A program made the position numbers and the translations under genes. The notes below the pieces were generated by a model, which was not told where the DNA came from, ran no database searches, and was given only the letters and a program-made list of their open reading frames with translations. From Eubacteriales bacterium (GTDB taxonomy: Bacteria; Bacillota; Clostridia; Peptostreptococcales; Anaerovoracaceae), in the NCBI GenBank assembly GCA_029009055.1, contig JAQXJR010000019.1, positions 1 to 33,310 of the forward strand: a stretch of 33,310 nucleotides of DNA, given 5' to 3'. This document shows, piece by piece, positions 20,521 to 31,624 of the stretch (position 1 is the stretch's first letter; each line of letters starts with the position of its first letter).

Positions 20521-21228
20521 CTAGCGCTTCAGTCGCTTATCCGACTTAATAGCCCAGTGGGTGCCCACCGACTGGAAGATTTGCACCAGAACGATAAGCA
20601 GGATCACGGCTATGATCATGATCAAGTACTGGTAGCGGTAGTAGCCATAGTTTATGGCGATCTTACCCAGACCGCCGCCGCCGATGATGCCGGACATAGC
20701 CGAGTAGCCGAGAATCGTCGTGATGGCGATCGTGATGTTAGAGATCAGCGACGGAACGCTTTCCGGAATCATGACCTTCATTATTATCTGCATCGGTGAC
20801 GCGCCCATGCTGACCGCCGCCTCGATGACATTACCATCCACATCGCGCAGCGAACTCTCAACCAGCCTTGCCACGAACGGGAAGGACGCGATGACGAGAG
20901 GCACGATAGACGCGACCGTTCCAACTACTGTGCCGACGATGGCCCTGGTCAGCGGGAACACCACGATCATCAGGATCAGGAACGGAATGGACCTCAGTAA
21001 ATTTATGATAACGTTTATCACTGCCATAAGCGCCTTAGGAAGCGGCAGCACACCGTTCTTCTCGCCGGTCACCAGGATGACACCCAGTGGCAGACCAATC
21101 AGCAGCGACAGAGCCGTCGCGATAATAGTAACGTAAACAGTTTCCCAGGTCGCCAGAGGGATCTCGTTCTGCAGAACGTAGATGGCCTCCTCGACCTTCT
21201 CAGGATCGAACATACTAGCCAGAACCAT
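20521..21228 (-). CDS. metI: D/L-methionine ABC transporter permease MetI
   Basis: The membrane subunit of the methionine importer. It has 235 residues with five to six helices. The cytoplasmic coupling (EAA) segment reads EAAVSMGASPMQIIMKVMIPESVPSL, and GYSAMSGIIGGGGLGKIAINYGYYRY is a MetI-family signature. The start is in a TAATG overlap with the metN stop, indicating translational coupling. Confidence 0.97.
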   Translation of the reverse strand: MVLASMFDPEKVEEAIYVLQNEIPLATWETVYVTIIATALSLLIGLPLGVILVTGEKNGVLPLPKALMAVINVIINLLRSIPFLILMIVVFPLTRAIVGTVVGTVASIVPLVIASFPFVARLVESSLRDVDGNVIEAAVSMGASPMQIIMKVMIPESVPSLISNITIAITTILGYSAMSGIIGGGGLGKIAINYGYYRYQYLIMIIAVILLIVLVQIFQSVGTHWAIKSDKRLKR

Positions 21229-22439
21229 TATTTATCCCCCTTTTCAACTTCAGATTTCGCAACATCAGACGCCGCAACGCCTGTATCCACAGCAATTTCG
21301 GACGCAACAACTTCGGACGCAGCAAAGCCGGAACCAGCTTCGGCGTCTGCCTCAACTCTGGTATCAGCCTCAGACGCCGCAAAGCCAGAACCAGCTTCGT
21401 CGGCGTCCTCGTCCTCATCATCATCCGACGCCGGCTTCAGCTCTATGACCCGGGCGGTGATGCCCTGGCGGCCGTTCATGAAGTCGAGCGTCTGCTCCAC
21501 ACTATCACCCTCGTCAGGAATAGAAAGCAGCATCTTACCATAGGCCTTGCCACCGACATTACGGGTGGAGGCGTAGAGGATGTTCGCCGCTATACCTTTC
21601 TTAAGAGCAAGGTCAGCTATCAGCGGCGAATCCGTGGTCTCGGAATCATTGAAGGAAACTGAGACGCACTTCATGCCTTCGCCCACCGTGAGCTGGGTCT
21701 CATCGCTGTCCGGGTTCACCAGCCTCTTCGCCGCCTCAGACTGAGGATTCTCGAAAATAGCCGACATATCGCCTTGCTCCTTCACTTCGCCCTTATCTAT
21801 GATGGCGACACGGTTACAGATCCTCTCAACTACCGACATCTGGTGAGTTATGATGATGACCGTGATGCCCATCTCCGTGTTTATCTTCTTTATCAAGTCC
21901 AGGATCTGGTTGGTCGTCTTCGGGTCCAGGGCGCTGGTCGCCTCATCGCAGAGAAGGACCTTCGGGTCAGTCGCCAGAGCGCGAGCTATGGCTACTCTTT
22001 GCTGCTGGCCACCGGAAAGCTGAGCCGGATACGCGTCCGCCTTACTCTTAAGTCCGACTATGTCGAGCAGTTCGAGTGCCCGCTTCCGCGCCTTCGCCTT
22101 ATCCACGCCGGAAATCTCCATCGGGAAGCAGACGTTCTTCAGGCAGGTCCTCTGCATGAGAAGGTTGAAGCTCTGGAATATCATGGTCACGTCGCGGCGC
22201 AGGTTTCTGAGCTCCTTCGGCGGGAGTGTCCCGATGTCGACGCCGTCTATGATGACCGCGCCCTCTGTCGGCCGCTCGATCATGTTTATGCAGCGCACCA
22301 GGGTGGATTTCCCGGCGCCGCTCATGCCGATTATGCCGAATATATCTCCGTCATTTACTCTAATATTAATGTCCTTCAAGGCTTCGACCCGGCCGGCGGC
22401 TGTTTCGAATGTCTTAGACAGGTGGCTGATCTCTATCAT
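21228..22439 (-). CDS. metN: Methionine ABC transporter ATP-binding protein MetN with NIL domain and acidic repeat tail
   Basis: ATPase subunit of methionine uptake. Walker A is GMSGAGKST (38-46), Q-loop Q89, signature LSGGQQQ (141-147), Walker B VLLCDE (161-166) and switch H199. Residues about 245-335 form the ACT-like NIL domain, which in E. coli MetN binds methionine for transinhibition. Normal MetN ends near 340-345. Here about 65 further residues follow, beginning [12 protein letters not shown] and containing an AGSGFAASE unit twice (349-357 and 368-376), then more Ala/Val/Glu/Asp. The tail is likely disordered and looks like expanded repeat sequence. Confidence 0.96.
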
Positions 22440-22788
22440 TTTATCTCCAATTCGGGAATTAACGGCGGGGCTAGGCCTCGCCCGGCTGACTTTACCATTA
22501 TAGCACGAACCCGGGACTTCCGCTCAGCCGCAAAGCCTTTCCGCCTTATTCGGCTCCGCCCGCCGCGATTTCTGCCGCAAACGCCGACCGCAATGCCCGG
22601 TTACAGTTGACCGGCGCAAGTGCCGGCTGCGAATTTTGGCATTGCGGGCGCAGGCTCCGCCCGCCGGGGAAATACGAAGAGCCCCCCGGCGCCTTAACGT
22701 GACCGGGGGACCCTGATATCCGGGCTGTGGTTCGCTTTGCTGGACCACATGAAGCGGTCTCACCTGGCTATGCCTCGCCCTGAATCAA
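22440..22788. other. 350-bp GC-rich spacer between metQ and metN
   Basis: There is no gene here. It contains a -10 element for metN, a CCCCCGG/CCGGGGG hairpin (22683-22709) that could terminate metQ, several CCGCCC/GGGCGG-type short repeats and two GCTTTGC heptamers. Spacers of similar composition flank ppi, proS, ispF and the yacL-like gene. Confidence 0.5.
22497..22502 (-). promoter_or_regulatory. -10 element of the metN-metI promoter
   Basis: A perfect TATAAT on the minus strand preceded by TGC makes an extended -10 (TGCTATAAT). It lies about 58 bp before the metN ATG. No good -35 is visible, which is acceptable for an extended -10 promoter. It implies metNI can be transcribed independently of metQ. 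Confidence 0.6.
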
Positions 22789-23655
22789 CTATTTAAGCTT
22801 GGAAACTCCGTCCAGACTCTTAGTCTTTCCTGGGTAGAGTCCCATAGGCTCGTTGTGGATGGCAGCTACAGATACGACCTTAGTTCCGTTCTCCTTATTG
22901 AAGTCATCCAGATATGGCTGGTGCTGGAAGTAGTTAGCGAAGATCTCGCCGCTGTCTACGACCTTATTAGGCTGAACGTAATCTGTGAACTCCTTAATGT
23001 CGAGCGTGATGCCCTTCTTAGCCAGGATCTTCTTCGCTTCTCTAAGAATTACAGCGTGCGGAGCAGGTGAAGCGGCTACTGTGATCTTAGTTCCCTTAAG
23101 CTTAGAATAATCAACGTCTGGATCATATCCGTCTCCCGGCTTCTCTACTGTGGAAACGATGGAGCCCTTATACTTCTTCTCTATGAACTCCTTAACCTGC
23201 TTACTCTCCAGGGCAGCTACGAGAGCCTTAGTCTTAGGGTCATTCTCGTTACCCTTCTTAACCGCTACGATGTTAGCGTACTTAGCGGCGCTTCCCTCTA
23301 TGATGAGTGAATCGTCTACAGGGTTCAGCCCAGCGTCGATAGCGAAGTTGGAGTTAGCGATGCCGAAGTCTACGTCCTTAAGTGTGTTAGGGACCTGAGC
23401 GGCTTCAACTTCCTTAAATGTGATGCCGTTAGAATCTTCGATGTCCTTAACCCTGGCTGTGATGCCGGCTCCGTCCTTCAGCTTAATGTAGCCGTTATCC
23501 TGGAGCAGGAGCAAAGCTCTGGCTTCGTTGGTCGTATCGTTAGGAATGGCGATAGTTACGTCGTTTTCTTTACTGGATGATCCGCAAGCTGAAAGCGCTA
23601 CAGCCGATACGGCGAGCGTCAGCGCTAAAACTACTGATAATACCTTCTTCTTCAT
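22789..23655 (-). CDS. metQ: Methionine-binding lipoprotein MetQ, circularly permuted
   Basis: Substrate-binding lipoprotein of the MetNI importer (NlpA/MetQ family). Signal peptide MKKKVLSVVLALTLAVSAVA ends in lipobox LSAC with lipidated C24. The mature order is reversed relative to canonical MetQ. Residues about 31-167 (VTIAIPNDTTNEARALLLL to EFIEKKYKGSIV) match the normal C-terminal half. A linker of about 20 residues follows (TVEKPGDGYDPDVDYSKLKG). Residues about 189-288 (ITVAASPAPHAVIL, FTDYVQPN, FQHQPYLDDFNKENG, NEPMGLYPGKTKSLD) match the normal N-terminal half and end the protein exactly where the canonical chain would continue into AIPND. Both halves are well conserved, so it is probably functional. 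The start MKKK is preferred, with GGAGG ten bases ahead. Confidence 0.95.
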   Translation of the reverse strand: MKKKVLSVVLALTLAVSAVALSACGSSSKENDVTIAIPNDTTNEARALLLLQDNGYIKLKDGAGITARVKDIEDSNGITFKEVEAAQVPNTLKDVDFGIANSNFAIDAGLNPVDDSLIIEGSAAKYANIVAVKKGNENDPKTKALVAALESKQVKEFIEKKYKGSIVSTVEKPGDGYDPDVDYSKLKGTKITVAASPAPHAVILREAKKILAKKGITLDIKEFTDYVQPNKVVDSGEIFANYFQHQPYLDDFNKENGTKVVSVAAIHNEPMGLYPGKTKSLDGVSKLK

Positions 23656-24277: not shown

Positions 24278-25231
24278 TTACCGCTCGTCTAGGTCTTTCC
24301 TCCGTCTTCCGAACCGGATCAGAAGCGCCAGAATCAGTAATGCCAATGGGAGCAGGATCCACCACCAGAACGGGAGCATGCGTATGAAATTTTTACCCGG
24401 GCCCTCGAGGAAGGTCTTATTCTCCTCAGGCGGGAACGGATCCGCCTGGACCTTATCGGTGATCTTCGCTGCCAACAGGTAGCGGCCGTTCGTATCGCCC
24501 GCGCAGGTCGACATGAGGACGATGTGGTCGCTCGGCTTAACACCCAAGTCCCTGTACCAGATGGCTTTGCGCCTGACAAGATCGAGGAAGCTTCGAGCCG
24601 CCGCCCGGTCGCCCGAGATCACGCTATAGATGGCGTCGTCGTAAGCATCACCTTGGAAGTAGGCGAAAATCTCTAGGCCGTGGTATTTCCCGCCATAATA
24701 GATTTTCCCATAGCGGCGCGACCTAAAGAATTTCTTCGACCGGAACTTATCCAGGTCACCGAACATGAGCCCGTCCTCCATGTGGTGGCCATAGATAATA
24801 GTCTTAAAATCCCCGAAGTCCGGCGCGTTCTTATAGTCCAGGAAAACACTCCCAGCGAGAGAAAACTTCCCCTCAGGGTCCTTGTTAATATAAGCGTCGA
24901 ACTCATTCGAGTAGAGCAGCGGATAGTCTATGCCCGTGCCGTAGACCTTAAGCCAGCCGATGACGTCATCGTTCTTCGCCTGCAGCTCCCGAAAGCTCAG
25001 GTTCCGCCCCCGGGACTCAGGCCTGTAGGTCTGGAAATTCGCCACATCCGCAGCCTTATAGATTTTATTCGTATCGTAAATAGTGTAGGCGGAGTAGAGG
25101 GCTGTTACGACGAAGAAGGCTATTATGGCGAGCTCGACCAAGACATTCGCGCCCCGAAGCAGACCCTGAAGCAAGCCTCGGAGCAAGGTCCGTGATTCCT
25201 TCCCGGATCCGTTCCCGCGTCCGTTATCCAC
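24278..25231 (-). CDS. Class B pilus sortase (second copy)
   Basis: Membrane transpeptidase that joins sorting-signal threonines to lysines or the cell wall. It has 317 residues with an N-terminal TM (about 31-52) and, unusually, a C-terminal TM (LPFWWWILLPLALLILALLI) with a basic end. Catalytic residues are H149 (IIYGHHMEDG), C243 (LMSTCAGDTNG) and R250. It aligns without gaps around all three with the other sortase of the operon, so they are duplicates. The GTG start overlaps the preceding pilin stop by 8 bp, with AAGGAG just two bases ahead. It is the last gene of the operon. Confidence 0.93.
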   Translation of the reverse strand: MDNGRGNGSGKESRTLLRGLLQGLLRGANVLVELAIIAFFVVTALYSAYTIYDTNKIYKAADVANFQTYRPESRGRNLSFRELQAKNDDVIGWLKVYGTGIDYPLLYSNEFDAYINKDPEGKFSLAGSVFLDYKNAPDFGDFKTIIYGHHMEDGLMFGDLDKFRSKKFFRSRRYGKIYYGGKYHGLEIFAYFQGDAYDDAIYSVISGDRAAARSFLDLVRRKAIWYRDLGVKPSDHIVLMSTCAGDTNGRYLLAAKITDKVQADPFPPEENKTFLEGPGKNFIRMLPFWWWILLPLALLILALLIRFGRRRKDLDER

Positions 25232-26297
25232 GTCTCCTTCTCCTGATCATGATGACCACGAGCGCAGCCACAGCCGCCGCCAGCACGATGCCCCAGAGCA
25301 TGATCTTACTCGTGTCACCCGTGATCGCGATGCCGCCTTTATATTTATTCGTGAACACGACCGCGTCAGCAGCCTTCCACGGCTTCCCGGAGCCCAGGAG
25401 CCTCTGGATGGAAGCGTCCGCCTTCAGCCCGGCGCCCTGCCTGTACACCTGATACGTCACCCGATATACGCTGCTATCGTAATTATAATTCTTATCACTC
25501 CCGGCCTCTTCCCTTATCTCGTAAGTGTATGATCCAGCCTTAGTGAATTTGATTTTCCCAAACGAGCAAAGCCCTTCGCCTGTGACTTTCGTCTCTGACT
25601 TCCCCGGCATCGGCATCTTCTTAGCGTTCATGGCGCTGGATTCCAAAGCCTTAAGCGTGAAGTAGAACGTCGAATCCTTCTTAGGATTTCCCTTAATCTT
25701 CTTCTCCACCTTAAGGAAATCGACCGTTACCGGGTCTGGCGGATATTCCTTGCCAAAGACATGATTAAATTCAACGTCTTTCGGCTTCTCACCCTCGCTG
25801 TCGACGACTACCATCTTCTCGAGTGTCACGCCATCCTTAGAGTTCAGGGCCTGGACCTTCACGGTGAAAACTTCTGAATCGTATGTGTAATCTCCGTGCT
25901 CGCCCTGGACCGCGCTCCTCACCTCGTAGGCGTAAATGCCGGCGTGCTGGAAGCTTATAGCGTTATCAGCTTTGCTGTTGAATGGGAATTTCACTTCCGC
26001 GTCCTTCCCCTTAAGCGTGAACTCGTAAGTTCCGCCTACCCGGCCGCCCGGCATAGGAGTCTCTGCTGCGTCAGTCGTTTCCGAATCTATGGCTTTTATC
26101 TCATATTTAACGGCGCTGTCGAAAGCCGGGTCCTTCTCTGCCTTAGGGTCTAGCTTCCACGTCTGTTTCACCGTCAGGTCCGTCGGATGCGCTGTCTCCA
26201 CAGCGAATGCCGTGTACGAAGCTCCGCCCGCGAGCGCCATGACCCAGGCGAGGACTATCGCTACCGTGAATCGAACTGCTCTATTCGCCAGCTTCAT
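25224..26297 (-). CDS. Minor (possibly basal) pilin with two FctA/Spy0128-like domains
   Basis: A signal peptide (cleavage near TAFA, residue 32) precedes two related pilin isopeptide domains of about 145 residues, 40-182 and 191-319. Domain 2 has the expected bond set: K196 or K199, catalytic E263 (YTYEIREE) and N317 (FTNKY). Domain 1 has N178 and lysines but Ser128 at the catalytic Glu position (YAYEVRS). The C-terminus is a sorting signal: IAITG (323-327), hydrophobic helix and RRRRR. This is not a standard LPXTG. Lying between two sortases, it may be the base or a minor subunit, like FctB position in streptococcal FCT loci. Confidence 0.88.
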   Translation of the reverse strand: MKLANRAVRFTVAIVLAWVMALAGGASYTAFAVETAHPTDLTVKQTWKLDPKAEKDPAFDSAVKYEIKAIDSETTDAAETPMPGGRVGGTYEFTLKGKDAEVKFPFNSKADNAISFQHAGIYAYEVRSAVQGEHGDYTYDSEVFTVKVQALNSKDGVTLEKMVVVDSEGEKPKDVEFNHVFGKEYPPDPVTVDFLKVEKKIKGNPKKDSTFYFTLKALESSAMNAKKMPMPGKSETKVTGEGLCSFGKIKFTKAGSYTYEIREEAGSDKNYNYDSSVYRVTYQVYRQGAGLKADASIQRLLGSGKPWKAADAVVFTNKYKGGIAITGDTSKIMLWGIVLAAAVAALVVIMIRRRRRG

Positions 26298-26312
26298 CTT
26301 ACTACCTCCGTT

Positions 26313-27290
26313 TTACTCTATCTCATCAGGCTTGGCTGCCTGCTTCATTCGTCTTTGTTTACGCTTTCTCCCCCGGCCTATAGCAAAGCCGAGCAGGATC
26401 AGAAGCGCTGCTCCTAGGAGGATCCACCACCAGAACGGAAGCTTTGCTAAGAAAGAACTTCCTCCGCCTAAATAAGGCTGCTCCTCCGCAGGGAAAGGAT
26501 CCCTATATGTCTTATCTGTTATCTTACCGGCCAGAATGTAACGCCCGTTCGTATCGCCCGCGCATGTGGAGAGCAGGACCACAGTGTCGCCCGTGTCTAC
26601 GCTTACATGCCTCGTGTACATGGCGATCCTCTTCATATACCGAAGGAACTCTGCCTTCTGATCGTCGGTCGTCAGATTAACGTCGTATATGCCGTTATCA
26701 TAGGCGTCGCCCTCGAAATAGGCGAAGAATTCTATGCCGTGGTTTTTATCGTTATAGTAAATGTTTCCGTATTTATGGTCATCGAAGTAGCCGCGGTCAG
26801 CGAACTTATCGATGTCGCCGAACATCATGGAGTGCTCCATGTGATGTCCGTAAATTATGTTCTTAAAATCCTTAAATTTCGGATCGTTCTTATAATCCAG
26901 GAATATAGACCCTGCCAGGGTGAACTTACCTGTCGGATCTGTGTTTATGTAGGCGTCGAATTTATCGGAATACACCAACGGATAGTCGATGTTAGTCCCG
27001 TAAACCGTGAGCCAGCCTATGACATCCGGATTTATCGCCCGAAGGTCCTGGAATGACAGGTTTCCCGTCCCGTTCTCTTCCGGCTTATATGTTTCGAACT
27101 CGGTTCCTTCCGCTTCCTGGTAGATCCGGTGCGTATCGTAGAGCGTGTAGGCGCCGAACAGCAGCATAATAAGGAGTATGACCAGTATGACCATATCCAC
27201 GCATCTGCTTATAAAGCGGATAAGCTTCCCGGCCAGGGAATCTGACCGGGAAGTATCTCTATCTTTCTTCTGAGTATCGTACTCTTCCAT
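26313..27290 (-). CDS. Class B pilus sortase (first copy)
   Basis: Pilus-assembly transpeptidase of 325 residues. TM1 is at about 32-50 and a C-terminal TM (LPFWWWILLGAALLILLGF) is followed by a strongly basic tail. Catalytic H149 (IIYGHHMEHS), C243 (LLSTCAGDTNG) and R250 are present. It lies directly after the backbone pilin gene, the usual place of the polymerising sortase. A hairpin lies between them, which may lower sortase expression relative to pilin. A 15-bp gap separates it from the minor pilin gene. Confidence 0.94.
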   Translation of the reverse strand: MEEYDTQKKDRDTSRSDSLAGKLIRFISRCVDMVILVILLIMLLFGAYTLYDTHRIYQEAEGTEFETYKPEENGTGNLSFQDLRAINPDVIGWLTVYGTNIDYPLVYSDKFDAYINTDPTGKFTLAGSIFLDYKNDPKFKDFKNIIYGHHMEHSMMFGDIDKFADRGYFDDHKYGNIYYNDKNHGIEFFAYFEGDAYDNGIYDVNLTTDDQKAEFLRYMKRIAMYTRHVSVDTGDTVVLLSTCAGDTNGRYILAGKITDKTYRDPFPAEEQPYLGGGSSFLAKLPFWWWILLGAALLILLGFAIGRGRKRKQRRMKQAAKPDEIE

Positions 27291-27310
27291 AAGATCCTAA
27301 ACAGTTTTAC

Positions 27311-27345
27311 AGAAAATCATTTATCGATCGCTTTCATGATTTTCT
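27311..27345 (-). terminator. Weak hairpin between backbone pilin and sortase, possible attenuator
   Basis: AGAAAATCAT pairs with ATGATTTTCT around 15 bases, just after the pilin stop. The stem is AT-rich and lacks a T tract, so it probably reduces readthrough or protects the pilin mRNA 3' end instead of stopping transcription fully. Confidence 0.4.
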
Positions 27346-27349
27346 TCTA

Positions 27350-28384
27350 TTAGCGGTTGAATTTTCTTCTGCCGACTACGAAGAGAGCGATTCCCGCGAT
27401 CGCGATGAGGATCATCGTTACGTATGGCAGTGAGTTAGTGATGATACCGGTGATGGTAACTGGTGTGTAATCGTTAGTAACTGCTACGATATTATCGCCT
27501 TCGCTTCCGAGCTTCTGCTCACCTGTTTCGAGCTTCTTTCCCTGATCGACTTTCGTTGCTGCTGCCTGTTTTCCGTCAGTAGTAACCTGATATGTAGCTG
27601 TGAAGTTCTTACCGCCATCCTCAGTTACGACGTACTTAGTTCCGGCAGGAACATCGCTGAAGACGAGCTTCTCGCCGTCCTGAAGTTCGAAGGAAGTTGC
27701 TTCTCCAACCTTGCATGTAACCTCGGTCTCACCGATTTTTCCTGTGTATGTGTCCTTATTTACGGCAGCGTTCTTGTCGTCGTTAGTGAAAGTGATAGTG
27801 AACTTATATGGAGATTCACTCTCGTATTCCTTATTAGTTACGGTCTTGCTGACTTCGAGAGTTGAAGTCTTAGTATATTTGTTAGTGAAGTCGATGCTGT
27901 CGACCTTCTCCTTCTTACTGTTTTCAACTGTGTATGACAGACCATCTGTTGTCTTATATACACGGAGTGTGTATGTCTCTCCGCCTACAGCCCATCCATA
28001 TCCATTTGCTGCCGCTTTTGGAGAAGTCTCAGCCACATTGTATGTGTAGAGGCCAGGCTTAGCATTTGCGAAATTATCGACTACGATCTTACCGAGGTCT
28101 ACCTTAGTTCCGGAAGCGAAGTTAGCGTTAGTCGCGTCCTTAGTAACAGCTGGGATAGCTACGTCAGCTACCTTGACCGGCTGGCCCGCGCCATTATCCT
28201 TCTGTGTGAAAGTGATGGTCACAGCGTCGCCCGGAAGTGTGACTCCGTCAGCGTATGTGATGGTCTTATTAACGTTAGGCGCTTCTGTGAGCGGTGTCGT
28301 GTCCGCGAAGGAAACGAGTGACATGCTCATTACAGTAGCCGCGCCGATGGCTACTACGAGTGCTTTCTTAAGAAAGTTCTTCAT
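27350..28384 (-). CDS. Backbone (major) pilin, Spy0128/FctA-like
   Basis: Predicted shaft subunit. A signal peptide is cleaved near SFA (27). Domain 1 (about 30-170) has isopeptide residues K40, E119 (YTYNVAE) and N168 (DFTNKY). Domain 2 (about 173-306) has K180, E255 (YVVTE) and N304 (VTNDY). Those positions nearly coincide with the bonds I recall for streptococcal Spy0128, implying the same two-domain pilin. Candidate polymerisation lysines are K157, K158 and K160, just before N168. The sorting signal is VTITG (309-313) with hydrophobic helix and GRRKFNR. The AAGGAGG site five bases before the ATG is the strongest in the operon, fitting high expression. Confidence 0.92.
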   Translation of the reverse strand: MKNFLKKALVVAIGAATVMSMSLVSFADTTPLTEAPNVNKTITYADGVTLPGDAVTITFTQKDNGAGQPVKVADVAIPAVTKDATNANFASGTKVDLGKIVVDNFANAKPGLYTYNVAETSPKAAANGYGWAVGGETYTLRVYKTTDGLSYTVENSKKEKVDSIDFTNKYTKTSTLEVSKTVTNKEYESESPYKFTITFTNDDKNAAVNKDTYTGKIGETEVTCKVGEATSFELQDGEKLVFSDVPAGTKYVVTEDGGKNFTATYQVTTDGKQAAATKVDQGKKLETGEQKLGSEGDNIVAVTNDYTPVTITGIITNSLPYVTMILIAIAGIALFVVGRRKFNR

Positions 28385-28471
28385 AACATCCTCCTTGAAA
28401 TTGAATAATATTGATTTTCTATCTCAACTGTTTCGTCCTTATTTAGCGATCGTTTGAAAATAGTTTAGAAC

Positions 28472-28999
28472 TTATATGCCGCGCCGGCGGATGATCGTCA
28501 TGACCTTACCGTGGGTGGCGCTTATATCGACCGGGCCGTAGAGACGGCTGTCTATAGGTGTGTTTCTGTCGTCCGCGAGCACGAAGACCTGGCCTGACTT
28601 CACCTTCACCGGGAATTTTATCCCCTGCTTATATGGCAAAGTCTCGACGTATATGTTATCTTCGATCTGCGAGTAACCGTTTATTTCCAAATGTCCGTCG
28701 GCTGTGATGTCGACTGTGTCTCCGGCCACAGCCACGACTCTCCTTACCTGGGTCTCGTCCTTATACTCGACCGTGATCACATCTCCTGCCACGTAGTTCT
28801 TCTGCAGCCTGTAGAATATGGTCAGGTCTCCTTCCTTAATGGCCGGCTTCATGGTGTTATCAGGCATCTGCACTATCCCGAATAATAGGGTGAACATTAA
28901 CACCATGACTATGGCTATGAATCCGATCTTCAGAAAAAGGAATTCCAGGTCCATGAGTATGGATGGCTGTTTCTTCTTCTCAGCTTCCTGTTTCTTCAT
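28472..28999 (-). CDS. Signal peptidase I homologue lacking the Ser-Lys dyad (SipA-like pilus assembly factor)
   Basis: A 175-residue type I signal peptidase fold with one N-terminal TM (about 21-43). In active enzymes the nucleophile sits in a G-[DS]-SM-x-P motif; here it reads PDNTMKPAIKEGD with Thr49. The general base lysine in V-K-R-V/I is Arg86 in TQVRRVVAVAGDTV. The later box LADDRNTPIDSRLYGPV is recognisable, with changes from GDNR. Both catalytic positions are thus substituted. In streptococcal FCT loci, catalytically dead SipA at the same gene position is needed for pilus polymerisation. It starts 9 bp after the tip adhesin stop with a GGGGG-type site. Confidence 0.9.
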   Translation of the reverse strand: MKKQEAEKKKQPSILMDLEFLFLKIGFIAIVMVLMFTLLFGIVQMPDNTMKPAIKEGDLTIFYRLQKNYVAGDVITVEYKDETQVRRVVAVAGDTVDITADGHLEINGYSQIEDNIYVETLPYKQGIKFPVKVKSGQVFVLADDRNTPIDSRLYGPVDISATHGKVMTIIRRRGI

Positions 29000-29008
29000 G
29001 GGCGCCCC

Positions 29009-31624
29009 CTAATGCTTATACCGTCTTCTCGACCGGTGCTCGAGGAAGTAGACCATGAGGCCGAGGACCGCGATCAGTCCGACCACACCGGCTCCTACCC
29101 ACCATTTATCATCGCCTTTAAAGAGTCCGGTAAATGGGATGTCTTTAGCCTCATTAGTGACCGTTACTGTCGTATCTCCGGCTATAGTCACCGTGTATGT
29201 GCCATCCGCGAATGTTCCTACGGCTGTCTCTTCACCATTCTCACCTTTCGCCTTGCCTTCCATGCTCTTAAGCGTGTAAGTCGGCGAGTAATCCGCCTCG
29301 GTGATGGTCACCTCAGCTCCATACGGAACCTTAACAGTGCCTGAGGCGCCGTTCTTAAGGCTGAATTTCTGTGTCTTATCCTGGCCATTCTCCGTAAAGG
29401 CGCAAGTGATGTCGAACTCCTTAGACTCATCAGCGAAACTGCCAATCGTTTTCTTCACTACAGTGATGTCATGGCCTCTCTGGGTGTTCGTAACAGTAGC
29501 CTCCGGATTCTCCTGACTGTTAACGTCTCCTGTTATTGAAACATCGAATCCCGGTGTCTCCGGATCCTCTGCCACCTCATAAGTGAAGTAGTTCTTCGGA
29601 ACAGTGATGGTCTTCGTCCAACCCTCCCCGCTCTTAACGTCGAATGGCTTCGTGACGTCTGCCTGACCCTCGTGCTTTCCGGTCAGCTTCATGGAAACCG
29701 ACTCCGGAAGGCCTACCGTAAGGTCGTTCCCATTCATGTCCTTCCAAGCCTTATTCACGGTTATCTGCTTAGTCGCCAGCGCGAACACTGGCTTCTCATC
29801 ATAATTGACATTCACACCTTTCTGGTTTCCGAAATCATAGCTGATATAGGCGCCATAGTTGGAGAAGTAACCCGTTCCGTCGCCTGCCGGGTTCTTATAG
29901 CAATCCTCGCCATTCTCCAGCAGCTCCTTATACGCGTCGTGACTCGGCTTGATGTCAAAGCTTATCGAGTATGTGTAATTCGGATTCAATGCGTAATTCT
30001 GTTTGAACTTAAGCGTGAGCTGCTTCCCATTCAGCGTGGCTTCGTCGAAGGCTTTAGCGGCTTCTCCCTCCACTTCATTACCATTCGCGTCTTTCACATG
30101 CAAAGTGTAATCATCGCCGGCGTCGAAGGTACTTCCGTCTATGACCACGTCAGCGTATTTACTCATGGTATCGTGTATGGACGCGCCAGTGAGCGATGTT
30201 ATGGATCTTCCGATCTCTTTAAACGCGTCTATAACGCCCTGTATGTCAGTGCCGCTGTAGGCAGCTTTATGCGTAGCGTCTGTATGATCTAACATTCCTG
30301 TAGTGAAGTCCGTGCTTCCGGCACTGGAGAAGGCTATGGAGTAGAAGCCAGTCAGGCCTTTAATAGCCGCCAGCTGGTCATATGCTCTCTGGGAACAGCA
30401 ACCATCGCCTAATAATTTCCCAGTTTTATCATCGTATATATAGTCATAACGACCATTCGATCCAGCCCCATCTTCATTTCCATGTCCAAGGGTCACTCCC
30501 GCAGTATACTTATGATAGTCATATCGATTGTTATATCCGTAATCGCTACCGTTTGCGTAGAAAAGCGTAGGCTCACCATCTGTGAGGAATATCACATATT
30601 TAGCCGCATCTGTTCTAGCTGAGCCAAGTGTTTCGGCGCCTGTTCTTAAACCCGCTTCGCAGTTGGTACCGCCGTTTGCGGTGATTCCATTTATAGCGCT
30701 ATCTACTGTGGTTTTTCTGTCCGTCCAACCTAGTACCTGGGTGGCGTCGTTATGTGGCGTATCATATTCCGGATTGTTATATTTATCTCCGCTGTAGCTG
30801 ACTACCGCTATCCTGGCGTCCAGGTTCTCCTTTGCCGCTGTGCCGAGGAGGGTATCCGTTAGGCCGCCCGCTCCGGTAACGACACCCTTCAGGATCTGCA
30901 TCCTGCTGCTCTCGTTTGGACCAGGTTCATTATTATCGCTCATCCGGTATCTCATACTGCCTGACTTATCCACGATCAGAAGCACGTCTACCTTAGGCTT
31001 CTCGCTGACTTCGACCATGCCCTTAATGTCCAGGGTCAGAGTGTACATATCCTCGATGACGTTACCATTTTCATCTTTTTTCTGGGTGAGCGTTTTATGG
31101 TGCTCAGGAACGTCCTGGCTCGAAGCTGCCCTAGCCGCCTTACGCAGAGGGCTGGCAGGTCTGGTTAGATTAACTTCATAGGCATTCGCGCCTCCGACCA
31201 GGTAGATCCCTTCCGGCTTAGAGTCGTCTGCGGCGGTTGAACCGTCTACATTAGCTGCTCCATCTGCAGTGGAGGCACCTTCCTCATTCGCCCTTCCATC
31301 CGCAGTAGCGGATTCACCCTCATTAGCTGCGCCATCCGCAGCCTGAGCGTCATCACTTTCGTTCACAGCGCCATTGGCGTTTTCATCTGTTGCAGCAGTA
31401 TTAGTACCAACGGATGAATCGGCAACTTGGTCATTTTCGGTTTGGCCCTGCTCGGCACTGGTAGCTACAGCGTTAGCAGAGCTGGAAGCAGCGGTCTGCT
31501 TTGCTTCGGCGGCATAACTCGCCGGCACTTTATTTCTTCCTGCCAGGGTGAAACCTCCTGCCAGGGATGCGGCGAGCAAAAACGCCATTAAGATTGAAAT
31601 GCTTCTTTTCTTCATCTTTCGCAT
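29009..31624 (-). CDS. VWA-domain pilus tip adhesin
   Basis: An 871-residue surface protein. The signal peptide ends near ASYA (38). Residues about 40-140 are Ala/Asp/Asn/Glu-rich with 12-residue repeats (ADGxANxxGxxT). The von Willebrand A domain (about 212-475) has MIDAS DKSGSM (D219, S221, S223), T320 and D349, with an extra arm at about 355-415 rich in Tyr, Asp and Gly and carrying a Cys pair at 409-410. Flanking beta-rich parts resemble other pilus tips such as RrgA. A Cna_B domain (about 619-715; K625, E686, N713) and another isopeptide-like domain (716-827; K724, E776, N824) form the stalk. Sorting signal is IPFTG (829-833), TM and RSRRRYKH. First gene of the pilus operon. Confidence 0.93.
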   Translation of the reverse strand: MRKMKKRSISILMAFLLAASLAGGFTLAGRNKVPASYAAEAKQTAASSSANAVATSAEQGQTENDQVADSSVGTNTAATDENANGAVNESDDAQAADGAANEGESATADGRANEEGASTADGAANVDGSTAADDSKPEGIYLVGGANAYEVNLTRPASPLRKAARAASSQDVPEHHKTLTQKKDENGNVIEDMYTLTLDIKGMVEVSEKPKVDVLLIVDKSGSMRYRMSDNNEPGPNESSRMQILKGVVTGAGGLTDTLLGTAAKENLDARIAVVSYSGDKYNNPEYDTPHNDATQVLGWTDRKTTVDSAINGITANGGTNCEAGLRTGAETLGSARTDAAKYVIFLTDGEPTLFYANGSDYGYNNRYDYHKYTAGVTLGHGNEDGAGSNGRYDYIYDDKTGKLLGDGCCSQRAYDQLAAIKGLTGFYSIAFSSAGSTDFTTGMLDHTDATHKAAYSGTDIQGVIDAFKEIGRSITSLTGASIHDTMSKYADVVIDGSTFDAGDDYTLHVKDANGNEVEGEAAKAFDEATLNGKQLTLKFKQNYALNPNYTYSISFDIKPSHDAYKELLENGEDCYKNPAGDGTGYFSNYGAYISYDFGNQKGVNVNYDEKPVFALATKQITVNKAWKDMNGNDLTVGLPESVSMKLTGKHEGQADVTKPFDVKSGEGWTKTITVPKNYFTYEVAEDPETPGFDVSITGDVNSQENPEATVTNTQRGHDITVVKKTIGSFADESKEFDITCAFTENGQDKTQKFSLKNGASGTVKVPYGAEVTITEADYSPTYTLKSMEGKAKGENGEETAVGTFADGTYTVTIAGDTTVTVTNEAKDIPFTGLFKGDDKWWVGAGVVGLIAVLGLMVYFLEHRSRRRYKH

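Follow-up and report, generated by a model that had tools for sequence, protein, structure and literature searches.

Can a methionine receptor of the MetQ family work with the two halves of its chain in reversed order, and how would such a gene arise? The question is raised by an open reading frame (ORF) at positions 22789 to 23655, reverse strand, of a 33,310-nucleotide (nt) stretch of DNA from a Eubacteriales bacterium (here called the window; contig JAQXJR010000019.1), which an initial annotation had read as a circularly permuted MetQ lipoprotein. Our analysis supports that interpretation. To judge from its sequence, the gene very probably encodes a working methionine-binding lipoprotein of the MetNIQ importer, permuted at the hinge between the two lobes. 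The observations behind this reading are the order of the halves, its spread among genomes, the grouping of the main permuted type in one clade, purifying selection, the operon, a conserved binding asparagine, and a confident fold prediction.

The ORF starts with ATG, is preceded by GGGAGG, and runs without internal interruption through 288 codons. A predicted signal peptide with the lipobox LSAC and Cys24 (23584 to 23655) is followed by the canonical second half (PF03180 positions 97 to 233; 23155 to 23562), which contains R46, N101, and N128, and the canonical first half (PF03180 positions 1 to 96; 22798 to 23085), with FTDYVQPN, FQHQPYLD, and EPMGLY, comes last. The PF03180 match of the whole protein is strong (E value of 1.4e-74; 250.7 bits versus a gathering cutoff of 27) but split into these two stretches, and the profile matches all 53 rows of A2, the window protein included. 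Both new ends fall at the junction of the halves, as originally noted: the N-terminus lies directly before VTIAIPND, and the chain ends in GVSKLK. A linker connects the old C-terminus to the old N-terminus (23086 to 23154; residues 168 to 190); its ∼23 residues compare with the estimate of about 20 made at the outset. Linker length is 23 or 24 residues in the 100 relatives measured, with G144 and Y151 (A1/A2 numbering) invariant. Of 114 permuted ORFs, 110 have the lipobox pattern, likewise pointed out initially, and three of the remaining four show a Cys near the start.

Permutation-aware alignment, which the initial annotation had suggested, bears out the exchange. The local score against Escherichia coli K-12 MetQ rises from 236 for the unrotated mature chain to 371 at the best rotation (maximum of 200 shuffles, 62), and that against a canonical relative, L074, rises from 394 to 684 (maximum of 200 shuffles, 64). 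Rotation points scoring within 5 of the best lie at residues 165 to 215 and 167 to 192, respectively. Each of the 22 PDB sequences found matches the window protein as two stretches and none as one; therefore, none of them has the permuted order. The idea that this order is simply the standard of the family is thus at odds with E. coli MetQ, with these 22 sequences, and with the matches listed in our family, order, class, and phylum scans, most of which are canonical. The AlphaFold2 model of the permuted protein is confident and shows an ordered linker, and a structure search aligned the first part of this model with the second part of solved MetQs. OpuAC and GlnP domains, which belong to type II proteins, align along the entire model with sequence order kept, in a search that had no canonical model as a control; this in-order alignment only hints at the lobe exchange.

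An assembly artifact or chimeric join near position 23150, named early on as one of two observations that would undo the claim, is suggested by the 43 contigs of the window assembly and by the fact that most relatives from named genomes (the best 80 of 567) are metagenome-assembled genomes (MAGs). Yet a search of genomes for the same arrangement, as proposed, showed that dozens of separate assemblies agree in order, linker length, and ends, among them one of a single contig (G109) and one of two contigs (G026), and the permuted gene is under purifying selection. In six close main-type pairs, the ratio of nonsynonymous to synonymous substitution rates (dN/dS) is 0.013 to 0.054; two second-type pairs give 0.071 and 0.109, and silent sites are saturated in the two pairs that include the window protein. 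An artifact is thus barely conceivable, and we rejected misassembly on the grounds of recurrence across independent assemblies.

Permuted MetQ is a standing variant in Clostridia. Within the genus of the host, 3 of 17 genomes (host included) carry the permuted form, one the canonical form (G010), and one a weak match (G004), while 12 have no match. Our family, order, class, and phylum samples overlap one another. Of 296 genomes sampled from the host's family, at least 32, from 16 of 92 genera, are permuted by inspection of the sequences, a lower bound comprising 28 genomes with the main type and 4 with a second type; any match at all was obtained in 124 of the 296. Full-length matches to the main-type profile occur in 10 of 297 genomes of the order sample, in 17 of 391 of the class sample (nine families), and in 2 of 398 of the phylum sample, one being the host's own. 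A scan of named genomes queried with the permuted profile, which for that reason gives no frequency estimate, returned 567 relatives; the best 80, which include [Eubacterium] infirmum NCTC12940 (L083), Lachnoclostridium sp. An131, Oscillibacter sp. MSJ-31, and two MAGs of Treponema, all have the permuted order. Several of these loci overlap genomes of the family sample (L083/G026, L084/G008, and L085/G009). The Treponema loci (L122 and L134) are of the main permuted type and form a group of their own (99, starred), which would reflect transfer or a binning error; the signal peptide of L122 has no lipobox Cys.

The descent of the permuted form was traced in a tree of 138 rows (61 permuted and 77 canonical) and 251 columns, built with a quick method. 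Two incomplete loci (L046 and L054) and two with a stop within the matched stretch (L108 and L144) were left out, and the remaining loci were subsampled as fixed sets plus 12 random draws. All 57 main-type proteins form one clade (SH-aLRT, 92), which the canonical L074 (genome G042, genus g27) joins at a starred value of 96; G164, a congener of G042 in g27, is permuted (L066). An apparent duplicated half in L066, a match to profile positions 62 to 233, was rejected because the protein holds no second copy, and L061, located at the end of a contig, is a fragment with the canonical order. Fusion of halves from two metQ genes, or from split half-genes, could in principle have produced the same order: some Clostridia have two or three consecutive metQ genes (L264 and L266), and recently duplicated copies would be indistinguishable from one. 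However, trees of the separate halves each place the main type on one side of a branch (96, starred, and 89). L074 joins the main type in a starred set of the half B tree (97), and in the half A tree its nearest rows are permuted, although it falls in no starred set. Since each half alone keeps the main type together, permutation of a single gene is the simplest reading, and a two-gene fusion seems improbable. We infer that the permuted state is derived, because the canonical order is that of E. coli MetQ, of the solved MetQs found, and of most clostridial matches listed.

The second, divergent permuted type occurs in four of six genomes of genus g67 (L069 to L072) and in one genome of another family (L265 in G747). 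It has a longer linker than the main type, and at L069 to L071 and L265 it lies beside metN-metI-like genes. A free tree sets it apart from the main type on long branches, about which the tree tool issued a warning. In an approximately unbiased (AU) test, constraining all permuted forms to one group raised the likelihood by 4.54 log units over that of the free tree (P = 0.558); a single clade is not rejected, and the result is compatible with either one or two origins of the permuted order.

The genes around metQ point to methionine import. Consistently with the initial description of intact neighbors, the same strand carries metN, an ATPase gene with a NIL domain (21228 to 22439; TIGR02314, 345 bits versus a cutoff of 499.7), and the permease gene metI (20521 to 21228; NF008049, 188 bits versus a cutoff of 212), both identified by best match and both below these NCBIfam cutoffs. 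Of the 114 different permuted ORFs, 83 are followed by 2600 nt or more of sequence, and 77 of these 83 loci have metN and metI downstream on the same strand. By eye, both genes are also present at L066 and L101, and similar metN/metI-type genes lie directly upstream at L069 to L071. Residues F86, H88, Y91, R144, and N202 of E. coli MetQ, which we take to form the methionine pocket, and N229 all align with identical residues of the window protein. The equivalent of N229 is N128, whose column (N96) shows no variation in A1 or A2; in E. coli MetQ, the N229A change is reported to weaken L-Met binding by over five orders (PMC12357092). That the permuted receptor serves a ligand other than methionine is therefore rather unlikely for the main type, given these residues and an operon with a NIL-domain MetN and MetI. 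The divergent type (L069 to L072 and L265) lacks some motifs (PxPH and EPMG), and its ligand may well be a different one. A nonfunctional relic, or a duplicate kept beside a normal MetQ, would find a precedent in G222, where a permuted copy coexists with a distant canonical-order homolog. This we consider highly improbable, because the host's 1.71-Mb genome holds no second PF03180 match, because in all 25 genomes that have a full-length match the permuted gene is the sole match to the main-type profile (A1) at an E value of ≤0.001, and because of the low dN/dS.

The local operon has some peculiarities of its own. MetN carries a long acidic, Ala/Glu-rich tail after the NIL domain, encoded in part by a tandem repeat at 21311 to 21399; among 129 MetN-like ORFs compared, that of the window included, the others reach at most 26 residues beyond the match. 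The gap between metQ and the metN ATG spans 349 nt (22440 to 22788) with short GC-rich repeats. Measured to the stop-to-stop frame, it is ∼270 nt, compared with ≤70 nt in 17 of the 20 relatives listed, 345 nt in L087 and L088, and 255 nt in L109. No S-adenosylmethionine riboswitch reached the gathering score in the window. Elsewhere, at 24278 to 31624, lies a probable sortase/pilus cluster with two sortase-like proteins (one just below the Pfam cutoff), an FctA-domain protein, a DUF7601 protein, a signal peptidase, and a VWA protein.

How the order was exchanged is plausibly explained by tandem duplication and trimming, as initially suggested. The likely course would be an in-frame tandem duplication, then fusion, and then trimming of the outer halves. 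In G593 (L264, positions 1048 to 2808), two canonical metQ genes follow metI in a shared frame, separated by a single stop codon, and G597 (L266) has three metQ genes in a row. Tandem copies in one frame are the step that this route requires, so it is evidently available; both loci lie outside the permuted lineage, L264 in another family, and show no more than that. Support for this route is thus indirect, and traces of the later steps were missing: none of the loci examined had an ORF in which a half was repeated, as in a fused A-B-A-B intermediate, and no relic of a duplicated half was seen by eye after the stop codon of 29 genes. Family-scan matches running past the stop resembled alignment overrun. 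Besides these two negatives, other observations weigh against a working receptor permuted from one gene. L117 has no adjoining metN and metI by eye. Matches of the predicted model with stated ranges cover only its first part, the other half being supported by sequence and by short Foldseek rows without ranges. The TIGR00363 (MetQ/NlpA) score, 138.3 bits in two stretches, misses the membership cutoff of 228.85, as expected because the match is split.

If the gene works as proposed, the permuted MetQ would be exported and lipidated at Cys24, would adopt the usual MetQ fold, its old ends bridged by an ordered strap, and would bind methionine in the cleft and dock on MetI. Its lipid anchor, instead of preceding one lobe, would now precede the other. 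Because the two lobes of type II binding proteins are pseudo-symmetric and MetI forms a homodimer, this shift was probably close to neutral, which would account for its being tolerated. More speculatively, and with our own judgment slightly on the doubtful side, the permuted form may represent a lobe-exchanged receptor class that replaces ordinary MetQ in many Clostridia, descends from a lineage next to an extant canonical sister, and possibly arose twice (the divergent type of g67 and G747), with pseudo-symmetric lobes and a homodimeric transporter making a lipid anchor workable on either lobe.

With canonical MetQ/NlpA proteins (PF03180; E. coli MetQ, 4yah; Ruminococcus gnavus RUMGNA_00858, 4ib2), the window protein shares the sequence of both halves, the aligned binding residues, the lipoprotein signal, and the metN/metI neighbors; it differs in its reversed halves, the extra linker, and an anchor before the other half. 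Whole-protein annotation models can overlook such a form, as illustrated by its scores below the cutoffs of all three NCBIfam models that match it. To our knowledge, few natural circular permutations have a close canonical sister. We found no published description of a permuted MetQ in the literature searched, which mostly leaves out subscription papers, and permutation terms had no match in a paper on OpuA (PMC2861598); permuted MetQ thus seems new, while permuted binding proteins are already known in other families. TpMglB-2 (Tp0684) of Treponema pallidum, termed Type Ic, is described as a naturally permuted lipoprotein receptor of an ATP-binding cassette importer, with a permutation that its authors suggest is linked to anchoring; it differs from the window protein in its type I fold and glucose ligand (PMC4990184). 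The sequence and fold matches listed for the window protein do not include TpMglB-2, an absence that excludes nothing. Glycine betaine-binding proteins are also reported to be permuted relative to one another, with low mutual identity (CPSARST; PMC2395249), whereas permuted and canonical MetQ are close kin. Because of this kinship and the usual operon of the permuted form, the two are directly comparable and offer material for asking how a protein switches chain order. Lipidation is reported to matter for the MetQ-MetNI interaction (PMC8416018), and the pair therefore tests whether the position of the anchor matters as well.
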